The translations under genes and the position numbers were made by a program. 64,000 bases of DNA from Pseudomonadota bacterium (GTDB lineage: Bacteria > Pseudomonadota > Alphaproteobacteria > Rhodobacterales > Rhodobacteraceae), in assembly GCA_020161655.1 (NCBI GenBank), contig JAIUPC010000017.1, forward strand, positions 124,001 through 188,000, read 5' to 3'. Positions 1,195 through 48,904 of the stretch are shown here, piece by piece (the first letter of the stretch is position 1; each line of letters begins with the position of its first letter). Under the pieces are notes generated by a model that worked only from the letters and a program-made list of their open reading frames with translations, did not search any database and was not told the DNA's origin.

Positions 1195-2847
1195 TCAGCC
1201 GCCGTAGGTCACCTTGCCGCCCGCGATGGTCAGCGCGATGCCCATGCCCGCCACATCCTCGGGCCGCGTCGCGTCGATGTCGCCTGACAGGACCACCACA
1301 TCGGCGGCCATGCCGGGACGGAGCGTGCCGGTCAGCCCTTCCATATGCGCGGCCCAGGCGCCGCCGGCGGTATAGGCGCGGAGAACATCGTCAAGCGGCA
1401 CCCTCTGGTCGCTGCCGCCTTCGTAAGTCGGGCGGGTCAGCGCGGCATGGATGCCCCGGATCACCGAGATATCCGTGACCGGCCAGTCGGAGGCGAAGGC
1501 AAGCGGCGCCCCGGCCTCAGCCAGCGAGCGGCAGAGATAGGCGTCGTTCCAGCGGTTCTTTCCGATCACGTCGAGCGTCGGGAAAAGCGGGAAATCCATC
1601 GCCCCCGGCGCATGGACCGGCTGGACCGAGGCGGTGATGCCAAGCGCGCCGAGGCGCGGCACATCGGCCTGGTCGATCAGCTCGATATGTTCGATCCGGT
1701 GGCGGCTGTCGCGCTTGCCATTGGCCTTCCGTGCGGCCTCGTAGCCGTCGATGGTGGTCCTGACGGCGGCATCGCCGATGGCATGGACGGCGATCTGCAT
1801 ACCGCGCCGGTCGATCTCGGTCGCGACCTCGTTGAAGCGCGGGCCGGGGAAGAGGGGTTCCGCCCGATGGCCGGGATGGCCGGGGTATTCGTTCACCATG
1901 TAGGCGGTGCGGCTGTCGACGACCCCGTCCATGAACATCTTGACGAAGTTGCAGCTCAGCCATTCATCGTTGAAATCGCGGGACATCTCTTCGGCGCGGT
2001 CAAGCTCCGACAGGTCCATGTGCGGCTTGAAATGGAAGGGCACCTTGACCCGCGCCGTCAGCCCGCCCGCCCGCTGCAACCCGCGCAGCAGTTCCAGCGT
2101 GTAGCGGTTGCCGTCCATGTTGATGATGGAGGTGATGCCATGCGCGGCGGCATGGGCCAGGCCCTTCGTCGCCTTGGTGCGGTGAATCGCCTGCTCTGCC
2201 TCTGTCGGCCAGGGGGAAGGCTCGCCACCGGTGGCGATGCCGAGGTAAAGCGCGTTTTCGCCGCCAAGGGCCACGACCGGGGCAAAGGCCTCGAACTCCA
2301 AGAGTTCGCCCGTCGCCTGACCATCCGCGCCCATGACGACCTCATGCCCCGGCGGGGTCTTGAGGCCGCCGAGGATACCCGCCTGTTTCAGTGCCAAGGT
2401 GTTGGCCCAGACCGTGTGATGGTCATGCGAGGTGATGGCGATGGGCCGGTCGGCGATGATCCGGTCCAGGTCATGGCGGGACAGGGGATGGTCAAGGAGC
2501 GTGTAATGGCCGCCCTGAGCCATCAGAAGCGGGCGATCAGGATTGGCGGCGGCGAAATCGCGGAAGGCTTTGGTCAGCGCGGCCTCGCCATCGGCCCCGT
2601 GCAGCTGGAGATGCGTGAGTTCCGTGCCGCCAAGCACGAGATGCAGGTGGCTTTCGACGAAGCCGGGCAGAAGCGTGCGGCCCTTGCAGTCGATGACCTT
2701 CGTTGCCAGCCCCGCCAGACGCTCGATTTCCGCGCGGCTGCCAAGGGCGGCGATGCGGTCGCCGGCCAGGGCAATCGCCTCGGCACGCGGGCGGGCGGGG
2801 TCCATCGTCAGGATACGGGCATTGGTCAGGATCATGTCGGGGGTCAC
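1195..2847 (-). CDS. YtcJ-like metal-dependent amidohydrolase
   Basis: A 550-residue amidohydrolase-superfamily protein of the YtcJ type, which are exoenzyme-like hydrolases with mostly unknown substrates. The N-terminal beta-sandwich strand (MILTNARILTMD) is followed by the metal-binding HxH in LLPGFVESHLHL. Later come a GITSIINMDG segment, VHAIGDAAV with a metal-ligand His, RIEHIELI with another His, and the terminal Asp motif FASDWPVTDISV. Together these complete the usual TIM-barrel metal site. The length fits the family (about 530-560). The start is GTG, chosen because GGAGGAAGG lies 6 nt upstream. The dapA gene lies 358 bp upstream, across a structured repeat, so a shared transcript is uncertain. 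Confidence 0.85.
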   Translation of the reverse strand: MTPDMILTNARILTMDPARPRAEAIALAGDRIAALGSRAEIERLAGLATKVIDCKGRTLLPGFVESHLHLVLGGTELTHLQLHGADGEAALTKAFRDFAAANPDRPLLMAQGGHYTLLDHPLSRHDLDRIIADRPIAITSHDHHTVWANTLALKQAGILGGLKTPPGHEVVMGADGQATGELLEFEAFAPVVALGGENALYLGIATGGEPSPWPTEAEQAIHRTKATKGLAHAAAHGITSIINMDGNRYTLELLRGLQRAGGLTARVKVPFHFKPHMDLSELDRAEEMSRDFNDEWLSCNFVKMFMDGVVDSRTAYMVNEYPGHPGHRAEPLFPGPRFNEVATEIDRRGMQIAVHAIGDAAVRTTIDGYEAARKANGKRDSRHRIEHIELIDQADVPRLGALGITASVQPVHAPGAMDFPLFPTLDVIGKNRWNDAYLCRSLAEAGAPLAFASDWPVTDISVIRGIHAALTRPTYEGGSDQRVPLDDVLRAYTAGGAWAAHMEGLTGTLRPGMAADVVVLSGDIDATRPEDVAGMGIALTIAGGKVTYGG

Positions 2848-2943
2848 GGGCGCCTTCCTCCTCCAAGGATATGATCAAATTTCTAGCCCGGAGTGGAGCG
2901 GTTGAAAAGCCCCCCTGGTGGGATTGCGCCTGATGCTCCCCCC

Positions 2944-3160
2944 GAAGCATCGGCAGGGGCCATCGCCCCTGCCGCGCGGAAACGGCGCCACCGGTACGAC
3001 CGGTGGCCCGAAGCCACCGGGCAGCGCCTGCCCTGCCCCCGGCAGGCGCTTCACGCCCACCGGGTCAGGCGCTGCCCTCCGTGGTCTCGGGCTGATCCGG
3101 TCGTGCTGAATCGTTTCCGCGTGAGCGGGGCGACGCCAGTGGCGCCGCTTATCCCGCTCA
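2944..3160. repeat. Structured intergenic element, copy 1
   Basis: This 217-bp element fills most of the 358-bp gap between dapA and the amidohydrolase, and it recurs at 48663-48881 with roughly four of five bases identical. Perfect stems are: 2952-2960/2965-2973; 2975-2983/3113-3121 (closing stem CGCGGAAAC/GTTTCCGCG); 3000-3007/3013-3020; and 3019-3029/3067-3077. An alternative stem, 3024-3032/3041-3049, excludes the last of these. A 3' hairpin pairs 3123-3129 with 3153-3159. No ORF in it looks coding. The coding strand of any RNA is not known. Confidence 0.8.
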
Positions 3161-3205
3161 GGTCGGGCGGTGGAAACATCGGGCCTTGTCCCGTTCGCCT
3201 CAGGC

Positions 3206-4081
3206 TCAGTTCACCAGCCCGGCATGCCGCATCGCCGCGTCGATCTTTGCCTTGGTTTCGGGCAGAAGCGTCGTCAGCGGCGAGCGTACCTCGTCCGAGC
3301 AAAGGCCAAGCTTCGAGAGGCCGTATTTCGCGCCCGCAAGACCCGGCTCGATGAAGATCGCCTCATGCAGCGGCATCAGCCGGTCCTGATAGGCAAGGGC
3401 CGTGGCGAAATCGCCGGCGAGGGTCGCCTCCTGGAACTCCGCGCAAAGCTTCGGCGCGACGTTGGCGGTGACCGAGATGCAGCCGACCCCGCCATGGGCA
3501 TTGAAGCCAAGCGCCGTCGCATCCTCGCCCGACAGTTGGATGAAATCCTTGCCGCAGGAGGCGCGCTGCTGGCTGACGCGCTCGATCTTGCCGGTCGCGT
3601 CCTTGACGCCGACGATGCGCGGCAGTTTCGCCAGTTCGCCCATCGTCTCGGGCATCATGTCGATGACCGAACGCGGCGGGATGTTGTAGATGATGATCGG
3701 CAGGGTCGAGGCGTCGTGCATCGCCTTGAAATGCACGTAAAGCCCGCGCTGGGTCGGCTTGTTGTAATAGGGCGTGACGACCAGCGCGCCATTGGCGCCA
3801 GCCTTTTCGGCATGCTGGATCAGGGCGATCCCTTCGGCAGTGTTGTTCGACCCGGCCCCGGCGATGACCGGCACGCGGCCGGCGGCGGCTTTCACCACCT
3901 CTTCGATCACGCGGCCATGTTCGGCGTGGCTCAGCGTCGGGCTTTCGCCGGTCGTCCCCACCGGGACGAGGCCGTGGGTGCCTTCGGCAATATGCCAGTC
4001 GACGAGTTTCTTCAGCGCGTCCAGATCCAGCGCGCCGTTCTTGAACGGCGTGACGAGGGCTACGAAGGACCCTTTGAACAT
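3206..4081 (-). CDS. dapA: 4-hydroxy-tetrahydrodipicolinate synthase
   Basis: DapA condenses pyruvate with aspartate semialdehyde in the first committed step of lysine and diaminopimelate synthesis. The 291-residue product has the whole (beta/alpha)8 lyase: [12 protein letters not shown] at the N-terminus, the [10 protein letters not shown] substrate loop, [22 protein letters not shown], the Tyr-bearing YNIPPRS segment, the Schiff-base Lys in GVKDATG, and the [10 protein letters not shown] block. The length matches the family. AAGGAG lies 6-11 nt before the ATG. The gene is divergent from the lytic transglycosylase gene. The Pro in YNIPPR, where many homologues have YNVPGR, is not at a catalytic position. 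N-acetylneuraminate lyase is a relative but fits less well. Confidence 0.95.
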
Positions 4082-6174: not shown

Positions 6175-6455
6175 GGGGCGACAGAGGGCCGGAAAGGAAA
6201 GGTCCAGAGGACCTTTCCCCGGTCCGATTGGCCGGAGCCGCAAGGTGAAGGCCAAGGGGATCTCCGCTTGCACCCTACGTCTGAAAATCGGGGCGCAGCT
6301 GCCTGGGCTGGCGCGGTAACGCGCCTGCCGGGGGGAGATGAGGGATTAGCAAAGGTCCGGTGGACCTTTGCCCCGAAGAACGCCGCGCCGGTGGCGCGAC
6401 CGGGTGGCAGGCGCGGCCCGATTTGTCGCGGGACAAATCGGGCAAGATCACAACC
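6175..6455. repeat. Non-coding gap with three strong hairpins
   Basis: This 281-bp gap lies between the convergent slt and DMT genes. Hairpin 1 is 6196-6205/6209-6218 (GGAAAGGTCC/GGACCTTTCC). Hairpin 2 is 6349-6358/6362-6371 (GCAAAGGTCC/GGACCTTTGC). Hairpin 3 is 6417-6427/6432-6442 (CCCGATTTGTC/GACAAATCGGG). The first two share the 8-bp arm AAAGGTCC with a 3-nt loop. All arms pair perfectly. None has a clean T-run, so simple terminators explain them poorly; REP-like units are more likely. No gene was found here. Confidence 0.7.
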
Positions 6456-17536: not shown

Positions 17537-17872
17537 ATGCTGCGCGCCTACGCATTCCTTCTGATTGCCATCGTCGCCGAGGTCATCGCGACAACCGCGC
17601 TGGCGCGGTCGGACAGCTTTTCGCGGCTCTGGCCCAGCGTGGCGACCGTCATCGGCTACGCGGTGGCCTTCGCCTGCCTGTCCGTACCGCTGCGCGTGAT
17701 GCCGACGGGCGTGGTCTATGCGATCTGGTCGGGCGTCGGCATCGTCCTGATCGCGCTCGTCGCCTACTTCTGGTCGAAGCAAACGCTCGACCAGCCCGCG
17801 ATCACCGGCCTTGCCCTCATCATCGCGGGCGTGGCGGTGATAAACCTTTTCTCGAAATCGGTCGGCCACTGA
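17537..17872 (+). CDS. Small multidrug resistance (SMR) transporter
   Basis: A 111-residue, four-helix membrane protein of the EmrE/QacE type: AFLLIAIVAEVIATTALARSD carries the conserved helix-1 Glu that binds protons and cationic drugs. GYAVAFACLSVPLRVMPTGVVYAIWSGVG is the helix 2-3 signature with the WSG turn. It works as a dual-topology dimer. It could export quaternary ammonium compounds, or guanidinium if it is a Gdx relative. The usual Trp/Tyr set (YAIWSGVG) is present. Confidence 0.92.
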   Translation: MLRAYAFLLIAIVAEVIATTALARSDSFSRLWPSVATVIGYAVAFACLSVPLRVMPTGVVYAIWSGVGIVLIALVAYFWSKQTLDQPAITGLALIIAGVAVINLFSKSVGH

Positions 17873-17883
17873 CGGCGAAAGCG

Positions 17884-18042
17884 TCAGCCCTTCTTCGCCG
17901 CCGCTTCCTTCATGCGCTTCAATAGCTCCGCCTTCGGCGGCTGCTTGCCGAAGGGGTTCTTGTCGCTGCCCTTGGCGTTGTGTTCGGCATGCCGGGGGGT
18001 GTTCTTCCCCGATTTGGCATTGCCTGATTTGGCGTAGTCCAT
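17884..18042 (-). CDS. Small basic hypothetical protein
   Basis: A 52-residue Lys-rich protein (MDYAKSGNAKSGKNTPRHAE ... PPKAELLKRMKEAAAKKG). The ATG at 18042 has GGAG 10 nt upstream. The C-terminal NPFGKQPPKAELLKRMKEAAA has the regular charged helix of a conserved small protein, and composition differs from random antisense ORFs in this GC range. No function recognised. It ends 11 bp from the SMR stop (convergent). Confidence 0.6.
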   Translation of the reverse strand: MDYAKSGNAKSGKNTPRHAEHNAKGSDKNPFGKQPPKAELLKRMKEAAAKKG

Positions 18043-29924: not shown

Positions 29925-30044
29925 CTCGCGGCCCTCCTTGGCCTGTTACCTCTGCCCGCCAAGATAGGTCGCGGGCGCCAAAACGACAAACGCGCCCGTG
30001 GGCGCAACGCGCTGACGGGCGGCGATCCCGGAACAGGTCCGGGA

Positions 30045-35876: not shown

Positions 35877-36452
35877 ATGGCAAACACGACTACAGAGGTC
35901 GCCGAGGCGGCTGGCGAGGCTGCCGGCCAGGCGGCGGATGCAGCAGGGCAGGCGACGCAGTCCGCAGGCATGCCGCAGCTCGACTTTTCCACCTTCCCGA
36001 ACCAGATGTTCTGGCTCGTGGTGGCGCTTGTCCTGATCTACCTGGTGCTGTCGAAGATCGCGCTGCCGCGCATTGCCGGCATCGTCGCCGACCGCCAGGG
36101 CACGATCACCAACGACATCGCGGCGGCGGAAGAACTTCGCGCCAAGGCGGTGGAGGCCGAGAAGGCCTATAACAAGGCGCTGGTCGATGCGCGCGAGGAG
36201 GCGAACAAGATCGTCGCCGAGGCGCGGGTCGATATCGGCAAGGACCTCGACAAGGCGACGGCCAAGGCCGATGCCGAGATCGCGGCGAAATCCGCCGAAT
36301 CCGTCAAGCGGATCGAGGAAATTCGCGCGAGTGCTGCCAAGAACGTCGAGGACGTGGCCAAGGAAACGGCCGAGGCCATCGTCTCTGCCCTCGGCGTGAC
36401 GGCGGATGCCAAGTCCGTCGCAAGCGCCGTTGCTGCGCGGCTGAAGGAGTGA
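35877..36452 (+). CDS. atpF2: ATP synthase F0 subunit b' (b2)
   Basis: A 191-residue peripheral-stalk subunit. The first 35 residues are Ala/Glu-rich and soluble (the b'-type extension). One transmembrane helix follows ([24 protein letters not shown]), then a long charged coiled coil to the end. This is the diverged b copy seen in Rhodobacterales and cyanobacteria, forming a b/b' heterodimer with the next gene. Confidence 0.93.
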
Positions 36453-47667: not shown

Positions 47668-48650
47668 GAAGCTATCAGGTTGTCGGCATCGGCAATGCCA
47701 TGGTCGATGTGCTGACCCAGTGCGACGACAAGTTCCTCGACTTCATGGGGATCGAGAAGGGCATCATGCAGCTTGTCGACCGCGAGCGGGGCGAGATGCT
47801 TTATGCCGCGATGAAGGAACGCACCGAAGCGCCGGGCGGGTCGGTCGGCAACACCATGGCCGGGCTTGGCAACATGGGGCTGAAGACCGCCTTCATCGGC
47901 CGGGTGAAGGACGATGCGCTGGGCCGGTTCTACGCCAAGTCGCTTGAGCTTGAGGGGACGGATTTCCCCAATCCTCCGGTCGCGGCGGCGGAACTGCCGA
48001 CCTCGCGCTCGATGATCTTCGTGACGTCGGATGGCGAGCGGTCGATGAACACCTATCTTGGCGCCGGGGCGGATTTCGGCCCGGTGGATCTGGACGAGGA
48101 TGTGGTGAGGAACAGCGGCTACCTCTTCCTTGAGGGCTACCTCTTCGACAAGGATCACGGCAAGGCGGCCTTCCGCAAGGCGGCGGCGGCCTGCCATCAG
48201 GGCGGCGGCAAGGCCGGGATCGCGCTTTCCGATCCCTTCTGCGTCGACCGCCACCGCGCCGATTTCCGCGGGCTGGTGAAGGATGAGATGGATTACGTGA
48301 TCGGCAACCAGCACGAATGGGAATCGCTCTACCAGACCGATCTGGAAAGCGCGCTAAGCCAAGCGCGGGCCGATTGCGGGCTGGTGGTCTGCACCCGTTC
48401 GGGGGCCGATGTGGTGATTCTGCGCGGCGAAGAGCGGGTGGAAGTACCTGTGCGCCGCGTGGTGCCGGTCGATGCCACCGGGGCGGGCGATCAGTTCGCG
48501 GCGGGCTTCCTTTACGGTCTGGCCTCGGGCCAGACGCTCGCCACGGCGGGCCGCATGGGCTGCGTCGCGGCAGCGGAGGTCATCAGCCATTTCGGCGCGC
48601 GGCCCGAGACGGATGTGAAGGCGCTCTTCCGGGCCGAAGGGCTGATCTGA
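47664..48650 (+). CDS. Adenosine kinase, PfkB family
   Basis: A 328-residue PfkB-type kinase: VVGIGNAMVDVLTQCDDKFL, GGSVGNTMAGLGNMGLKTAFIGRVKDD and the C-terminal signature VVPVDATGAGDQFAAGFLYG, with the catalytic Asp in GAGD. The start is a TTG that overlaps the nth stop (TTGA), with GGAG 10 nt before. The next in-frame ATG would remove RSYQVVGIGNA, a conserved strand. Adenosine is the usual substrate of this branch; other nucleosides or sugars are possible. Confidence 0.9.
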   Translation: MRSYQVVGIGNAMVDVLTQCDDKFLDFMGIEKGIMQLVDRERGEMLYAAMKERTEAPGGSVGNTMAGLGNMGLKTAFIGRVKDDALGRFYAKSLELEGTDFPNPPVAAAELPTSRSMIFVTSDGERSMNTYLGAGADFGPVDLDEDVVRNSGYLFLEGYLFDKDHGKAAFRKAAAACHQGGGKAGIALSDPFCVDRHRADFRGLVKDEMDYVIGNQHEWESLYQTDLESALSQARADCGLVVCTRSGADVVILRGEERVEVPVRRVVPVDATGAGDQFAAGFLYGLASGQTLATAGRMGCVAAAEVISHFGARPETDVKALFRAEGLI

Positions 48651-48662
48651 GGGGTTGGGGCG

Positions 48663-48881
48663 GAAGCCTCGGCAGGGGCTATCGCCCCTGCCGCGCGGAA
48701 ACATCTCCACCCGGACACCCGGTGGCCCAAAGCCACCGGGTAGCGCCCGCCCCGCCCACGGCGGGCGCTTCTCGCCCGCCAGGTCGGGCGCTACCCTCCG
48801 TCGTCTTGGGCTGATGCTGTCTTGTTGAACTGTTTCTGCGTGAGCGGGGCCGACGCCAGTGGCGTCGACTGGTCCCGCTCA
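48663..48881. repeat. Structured intergenic element, copy 2
   Basis: This 219-bp relative of the element at 2944-3160 lies between convergent adenosine kinase and PAP2 genes. Stems: 48671-48679/48684-48692; 48694-48702/48832-48840 (one G-U); 48719-48726/48732-48739; 48738-48748/48786-48796. The alternative stem is 48743-48751/48760-48768. It is the 254-bp gap here; no gene was seen. Confidence 0.8.
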
Positions 48882-48904
48882 ATGCCAGCCGGTTCTCGAT
48901 CCGC

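Follow-up and report, generated by a model that had tools for sequence, protein, structure and literature searches.

A dispersed, probably REP/BIME-like palindromic element with a covarying fold in Rhodobacteraceae

Two intergenic sequences in a 64,000-nucleotide stretch of a Rhodobacteraceae genome (the window) are able to form the same stems, as rereading of both sites confirms. The question that they raise is whether this fold belongs to a structured RNA, as the original prediction suggested, or to a palindromic repeat that is dispersed as DNA.

Two copies in the window and their fold

Copies 1 and 2 can be aligned across the entire element, and their sequences diverge beyond its borders. 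The extents first proposed for them, 2944-3160 and 48663-48881, are right at their ends but begin about 5 bases too far upstream, since in the family model the copies span 2949-3160 and 48668-48881. The features of both copies are as follows.

2949-3160, + strand: long element, copy 1 (212 bp; covariance model R2, 191.6 bits, E 1.6e-35)
48668-48881, + strand: long element, copy 2 (214 bp; covariance model R2, 205.4 bits, E 3.5e-38)
2951-2974, + strand: H1, 5' hairpin of copy 1, a 10-bp stem with loop CATC (alignment-free pairing count)
48670-48693, + strand: H1 of copy 2, a 10-bp stem with loop TATC
2975-2984, + strand: 5' arm of the closing stem H2 (weak), copy 1 (partner 3112-3121; self-pairing test)
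3112-3121, + strand: 3' arm of H2, copy 1
48694-48703, + strand: 5' arm of H2, copy 2 (partner 48831-48840)
48831-48840, + strand: 3' arm of H2, copy 2
3000-3020, + strand: H3, hairpin with an A-rich loop, copy 1 (94.9% of cells paired in 65 copies)
48719-48739, + strand: H3, copy 2
3023-3050, + strand: H5, copy 1, AGCGCCTGCC (3023-3032) with GGCAGGCGCT (3041-3050), the best conserved core helix
48742-48769, + strand: H5, copy 2, AGCGCCCGCC (48742-48751) with GGCGGGCGCT (48760-48769)
3067-3077, + strand: H4, alternative 3' arm (11-bp stem) of copy 1, pairing with 3019-3029
48786-48796, + strand: H4, alternative 3' arm of copy 2, pairing with 48738-48748
3122-3160, + strand: H7, 3' hairpin of copy 1 (both helices highly paired in 65 copies)
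48841-48881, + strand: H7, copy 2

The site of copy 1 lies 45 nt beyond the stop codon of a gene of dapA type (3206-4081, - strand). It is also about 100 nt upstream of an amidohydrolase gene (1195-2847, - strand), counted from the predicted start of that gene; the flanking proteins match Pfam DHDPS and Amidohydro_3. Copy 2 starts 17 nt past the stop codon TGA (48648-48650) of a kinase gene of the PfkB family (Pfam PfkB) and sits between convergent genes. Folding of 2935-3185 around copy 1 gives z = -7.0 and folding of 48655-48900 around copy 2 gives z = -6.6; in neither case is any of 200 dinucleotide shuffles equally stable. The original prediction recognised no described RNA here, and neither copy reaches the gathering score of any Rfam 15 family; relaxed scans return four and six sub-threshold hits, with a best E of 0.023. 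The only Rfam match above threshold in the window is an ffh sRNA (RF01793, 66.8 bits) at 29985-30036 on the - strand. Three weak matches to the family model within the window (6185-6332, - strand; 17769-17904, + strand; 36365-36433, + strand; E 0.03 to 0.06) are perhaps decayed or short forms, or chance.

The element, about 212 bp long, runs from H1 to H7; between them lies a core formed by H3 and H5 together with an alternative partner arm. CATC is found in the H1 loop region of 152 of 185 copies, and H1 pairing ends at the eleventh position (12/52). H7 is made up of an outer stem and an inner stem with a 3-nt loop, with unpaired bases on the 3' side between the stems. The mismatch predicted for copy 1 in its 3' hairpin, at a place where copy 2 is paired, is present and is an A.C mismatch; the G-U predicted within the closing stem of copy 2 is there as well.

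Two core stems had been offered as separate cases of paired change. The 11-bp stem is formed by GGGCAGCGCCT (3019-3029) with AGGCGCTGCCC (3067-3077) in copy 1 and by GGGTAGCGCCC (48738-48748) with GGGCGCTACCC (48786-48796) in copy 2, and two of its pairs are indeed altered on both sides (C-G to T-A and T-A to C-G). The shorter stem pairs in both copies too, but it uses the same 5' arm (3023-3032 in copy 1; 48742-48751 in copy 2), so that a single T-to-C change in the shared arm counts in both stems; since the 5' arm is common to both, the two stems are alternatives. The register of the shorter stem, H5, was found by RNAalifold, with the consensus AGCGCCyGCC pairing with GGCrGGCGCT; a third core segment, which lies further 3' and largely repeats the second, is able to pair with the same 5' arm, giving the 11-bp stem.

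The 11-bp stem was considered as the main helix and was replaced by H5, which follows changes in the shared arm better across the family. At the variable column of the shared arm, pairing is seen in 61/61 copies with the near arm (H5) vs 44/60 with the far arm (H4), and over all columns 607/616 cells are paired for H5 vs 676/727 for H4. In 11 copies the shared arm is altered in its six core bases (a count that omits rows with gaps); among these, the near arm matches in nine and the far arm matches fully in two (L241 and L242) and partly in one (L238); in L010 and L237 neither arm fits the changed shared arm. The far arm is sufficiently conserved that it could be an alternative partner, but it may be a degenerate copy of the near arm. 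Copy L010 of the same genome as the window (1503-1756) carries about 40 additional bases inside the core.

Copies and covariation across the family

A search of the 4.08-Mb genome with copy 1 returns 25 matches: ten long copies with sharp edges (one of them, on contig C2, split in two) and 14 that match just the central part and belong to a related element of about 90 bp. This core relative is found in the same genome at L011-L018, L020-L025, and L142, and in several of these the fold is H3 and a long hairpin with GCGATGGC at its end; when the genus and family are searched, the matches that lie outside this genome (G000) and the same-genus genome G008 are likewise mostly confined to the central part. 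The original prediction had proposed a covariance-model search of the genome and of related Rhodobacteraceae, and that search finds further covarying copies. When the best eight candidates per genome are considered, a model built from 12 copies, which came from the two same-genus genomes and were found by BLAST (sequence alone), has matches in 45 of 295 genomes of the family, with strong full-length matches in G291, G249, G318, G210, G070, G222, G286, G078, and G032. Full-length relatives are thus present in G008 and in nine further genera. Among the matches listed for a 65-copy model at E <= 1e-3, which include partial and short forms, G318 has at least 150, G291 82, G249 49, G286 45, and the home genome 32.

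Under stricter filters and at E <= 1e-4, a sample of 288 other genomes from the class, of which three or more belong to the same family, gives no match; the element is not met outside one family in the sample searched. In G318 it forms head-to-tail arrays with a period of about 239 bp (measured in L221); array loci are L220-L223, L305, L307, L358, L366, and L368, several contigs end in copies, and many of the G318 matches lie at contig ends. The core is present as well on plasmids recorded for Phaeobacter inhibens (7), Leisingera aquaemixtae (4), and Tritonibacter mobilis (1); searching plasmids with a G318 copy gives no match, and searches with G291 and G249 copies give Leisingera only. Six G249 copies are 281-288 bp long (L323, L324, L328, L329, L330, and L332) and others are about 190 bp (L326, L327, L331, and L333). 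Model R2 has no match at 80 dapA loci of relatives; the nearest dapA relatives of the host are from Defluviimonas and other Rhodobacteraceae, and the host genus would accordingly be placed near Defluviimonas.

The fold is maintained throughout this set. In the 12-row alignment 14 of 60 pairs show double changes and 93.9% of cells are paired. With 65 copies from 11 genomes double changes occur in 43 of 54 pairs, and 90.8% of cells are paired vs 34-45% with slid partners; none of 500 shuffles attains any of five pairing measures. Seven of the ten H3 pairs show double changes, as do all 14 H7 pairs, and in the two H7 helices 96.2% and 95.9% of cells are paired. Alignments A3-A5, the 65-copy alignment among them, were fitted to a model, which leans towards pairing, and copies from beyond the genus were found by a model that takes structure into account, which favours folding copies. 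H1 was also scored free of any alignment, with the best-pairing register chosen for each of 58 copies (52 distinct) from 11 genomes; 513/572 cells are paired vs at most 205/520 with slid partners, and 0/1000 shuffles do as well.

A further comparison, on 59 of the 65 rows of A3 (truncated or poor copies dropped; the alignment is again fitted to structure), sets the 3' arm of each copy against those of other copies in the same genome. On average the own arm fits better in 6/6 helices (own vs same-genome pairing: H1, 0.980 vs 0.909; H2, 0.652 vs 0.544; H3, 0.949 vs 0.882; H5, 0.988 vs 0.967; H7 outer, 0.964 vs 0.950; H7 inner, 0.959 vs 0.907), and for each helix 0/1000 within-genome shuffles equal this advantage. 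Changes were therefore matched within copies after the copies had spread. The shape is kept while the sequence drifts, and single copies are not conserved in place; strong covariation among copies alone is no proof of a new RNA.

Sites, gene context, and mobility

All three of the ten long-copy loci that were compared with G008 are empty there: that of copy 2 (the kinase gene is 92% identical), L003 (flanks 87-88% identical, separated by 79 unrelated bases), and L007 (flanks 95% and 84% identical). Copy 1 is absent from the corresponding gaps between the dapA and amidohydrolase genes in L058 and L059. At L064, right after dapA, a different palindromic insertion is seen by eye at the junction that copy 1 occupies. 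The empty sites are not clean, in that tens of flanking bases differ as well; loss in G008 is therefore compatible with them as well as gain in the other genome, and the ends of the element are approximate. One junction with both flanks homologous (L285/L350) carries a copy in two genera, and three more pairs of copies from different genera lie beside homologous genes (L007/L206, L218/L280, and L212/L235). Relative to the genes, the two copies are oriented alike in L285/L350 and L007/L206 and oppositely in L218/L280 and L212/L235. The shared junction and the homologous-neighbour pairs are explained less well by random spread.

The copies favour gene 3' ends and convergent junctions. Of the classified blocks of copies, 48 are convergent, 60 co-directional, and 15 divergent, vs 28, 90, and 39 in the background (p = 1.3e-4, a rough value because the background pairs, which are other gene pairs at the same loci, are not independent of the junctions); genes were called with a simple caller of our own with the copies masked, and 123 of 158 blocks were classified, 26 having no neighbour and 9 lying more than 600 bp away. 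The home genome has eight convergent, two co-directional, and no divergent sites; G249 lacks the convergent bias (6, 19, and 8). The median distance from stop codon to element is 59.5 bp (156 gene ends).

No mobiliser was found among the transposase families searched or among the identified recurrent neighbours. The Y1 (PF01797) REP transposase is missing from the home genome and has one marginal match among 11 carriers, in a search whose control was positive in 5/14 genomes. Y2 transposase is absent from 10/11 carriers, a weaker negative because Y2 was found in 0/14 control genomes. Two of the 11 carriers are incomplete assemblies (84% and 71%).

Explanations and nearest precedents

The element is multi-copy, covarying, absent at matching sites of close genomes, arrayed in one genome, biased to gene 3' ends, and confined in the sample to one family, and it is therefore probably dispersed and non-autonomous, a palindromic element of REP/BIME type that forms structured 3' tails where it is transcribed. 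A structured RNA family under selection for its RNA fold (a 3'-UTR element, bidirectional terminator, or small RNA), with dispersal secondary, is rather improbable. Strong covariation would suit it, as would placement shortly after stop codons and between convergent genes; the three empty loci in a close relative, and the occurrence of both orientations between co-directional genes (23 same, 37 opposite), would not, and TTTT is not found within 8 nt past the last hairpin on the + strand in any of 185 copies. Selection on the RNA of one strand is expected to leave more G.U than A.C pairs. In alignment A4 (103 of 111 rows, truncated or poor copies dropped) the unique G.U and A.C events number 15 and 3 in H1, 14 and 1 in H3, 5 and 4 in H5, and 5 and 12 in H7. 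Scored free of alignment, a first set (108 of 111 rows) gives 25 and 5 for H1 and H3 together, as expected for an RNA, and 5 and 11 for H7 (Fisher 8e-4); in a second set of 77 new copies (of 82 rows) the excess is gone, with 19 and 15 for H1 and H3 and 8 and 7 for H7 (Fisher 1). In both sets rows were dropped for length or duplication, with fewer available per helix. The first set leans to G.U because it consists mostly of the highest-scoring matches, and no strand is claimed for the fold. The fold is kept, whether on RNA or on DNA, and compensatory change here does not separate the two.

Matching changes in both arms could also arise if template switching or hairpin-templated repair kept the palindromes perfect, with no selection on the fold and the repeat spread by other means, and the near symmetric wobble counts of the second set fit such a strand-blind process. 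This is quite unlikely; the one-sided shape of H7 is kept even where the inner stem differs strongly between genera, and repair would be expected to remove unpaired bases that stand on one side. Still less credible, to the point of being nearly dismissed, are MITE remnants of a conventional insertion sequence, for which size, copy number, and dispersal are suitable. In the 180 of 193 copies used for tests of edges, duplications, and tags, there are no terminal inverted repeats (the best match of the ends averages 7/15 bases, with a maximum of 10) and no clear target duplications, direct duplications being near the shuffled expectation (e.g., 4 vs 2.5 for 3 bases); the three recurrent groups of neighbouring genes that were identified are all metabolic (PfkB kinase, beta-eliminating lyase, and mandelate racemase type). 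The original prediction had named a match to an ordinary REP or MITE as counting against an RNA, and its idea of a structured RNA rather than a palindromic repeat is not supported on that count: the copies behave as a dispersed REP/BIME-like repeat, given ten long copies, at least 150 matches in one genome, arrays, empty sites, and placement at gene 3' ends. Its other half, a fold kept with compensatory change, extends far beyond the two copies.

For the REP/BIME-type element, spread might proceed as follows. Hairpins would form in single-stranded element DNA during replication or repair, and an enzyme that recognises them largely by shape would copy the element to new sites. Insertions would survive mainly behind stop codons, where no promoter gets broken, and there the hairpins would be transcribed as structured 3' tails that probably protect or terminate messages from one side or both. 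Compensatory change would come from selection on copies that can still fold, possibly together with hairpin-templated repair. A more specific version, which is conceivable though doubtful, is a mobile DNA element recognised by shape and spread by machinery other than Y1 or Y2, in which the one core arm with two partners could switch in a transcribed 3' tail; recognition by shape is suggested because H7 keeps its two stems and one-sided unpaired bases while the inner stem differs strongly between genera.

The element is REP-like in the wide sense, with many dispersed intergenic palindrome copies that are mostly behind genes. Like GTAG REPs and BIMEs with their RAYT (TnpA-REP) transposases, it is a high-copy, non-autonomous intergenic palindrome found behind genes and built into larger units. 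REPs are units of 20-50 nt with GTAG recognition, going by the accessible part of the source (PMC8266576), whereas the element here has about 212 bp and a fixed hairpin order, no Y1 transposase is found in 10/11 carriers, and GTAG or CTAC stands at either edge of H1 or at the 3' edge of H7 in 0/180 copies. Elsewhere in the elements GTAG occurs in 7/180 and CTAC in 51/180, 39 of the latter in the spacer region of G318. The regular spacing of units in G318 resembles BIME tandem arrays; units of BIMEs alternate, according to the available text (PMC2817692), whereas those of G318 are whole elements, head to tail and in one orientation.

The nearest precedents are the CGTC-tagged alphaproteobacterial REPs (Di Nocera 2013, PMC3733652), which, in the accessible part of that account, are high-copy repeats behind genes, between convergent or unidirectional ORFs, with no dedicated transposase found. 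Their stems are described there as 8-9 bp long, nearly always starting with A-T pairs, with a CGTC-type tag; H1 is a 10-bp stem with another start, and the tags CGTC, TGTC, and CCTC are each found in at most 1/180 copies per edge (H1 edges and H7 3' edge). On the other strand at H7, GACG occurs in 9, GAGG in 5, and GACA in 2 of 180 copies, mostly in G318. The word Rhodobacter is absent from the main text on CGTC REPs (PMC3733652). The element is REP-like and outside both tagged families, GTAG and CGTC, and the repeat is undescribed in the literature searched, which comprised mainly titles and abstracts, with subscription papers largely outside its scope.

The element adds to the REP-like repeats a large composite palindromic form, present in ten genera of one family, in which the known tags are missing at the tested edges and two transposase families are missing in most carriers. 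How REPs spread without a transposase of their own is a question already raised for CGTC REPs, in the available text (PMC3733652). The arrays and at least 150 matches of G318, together with the differing sites of the G000/G008 pair, make mobility of the element testable.
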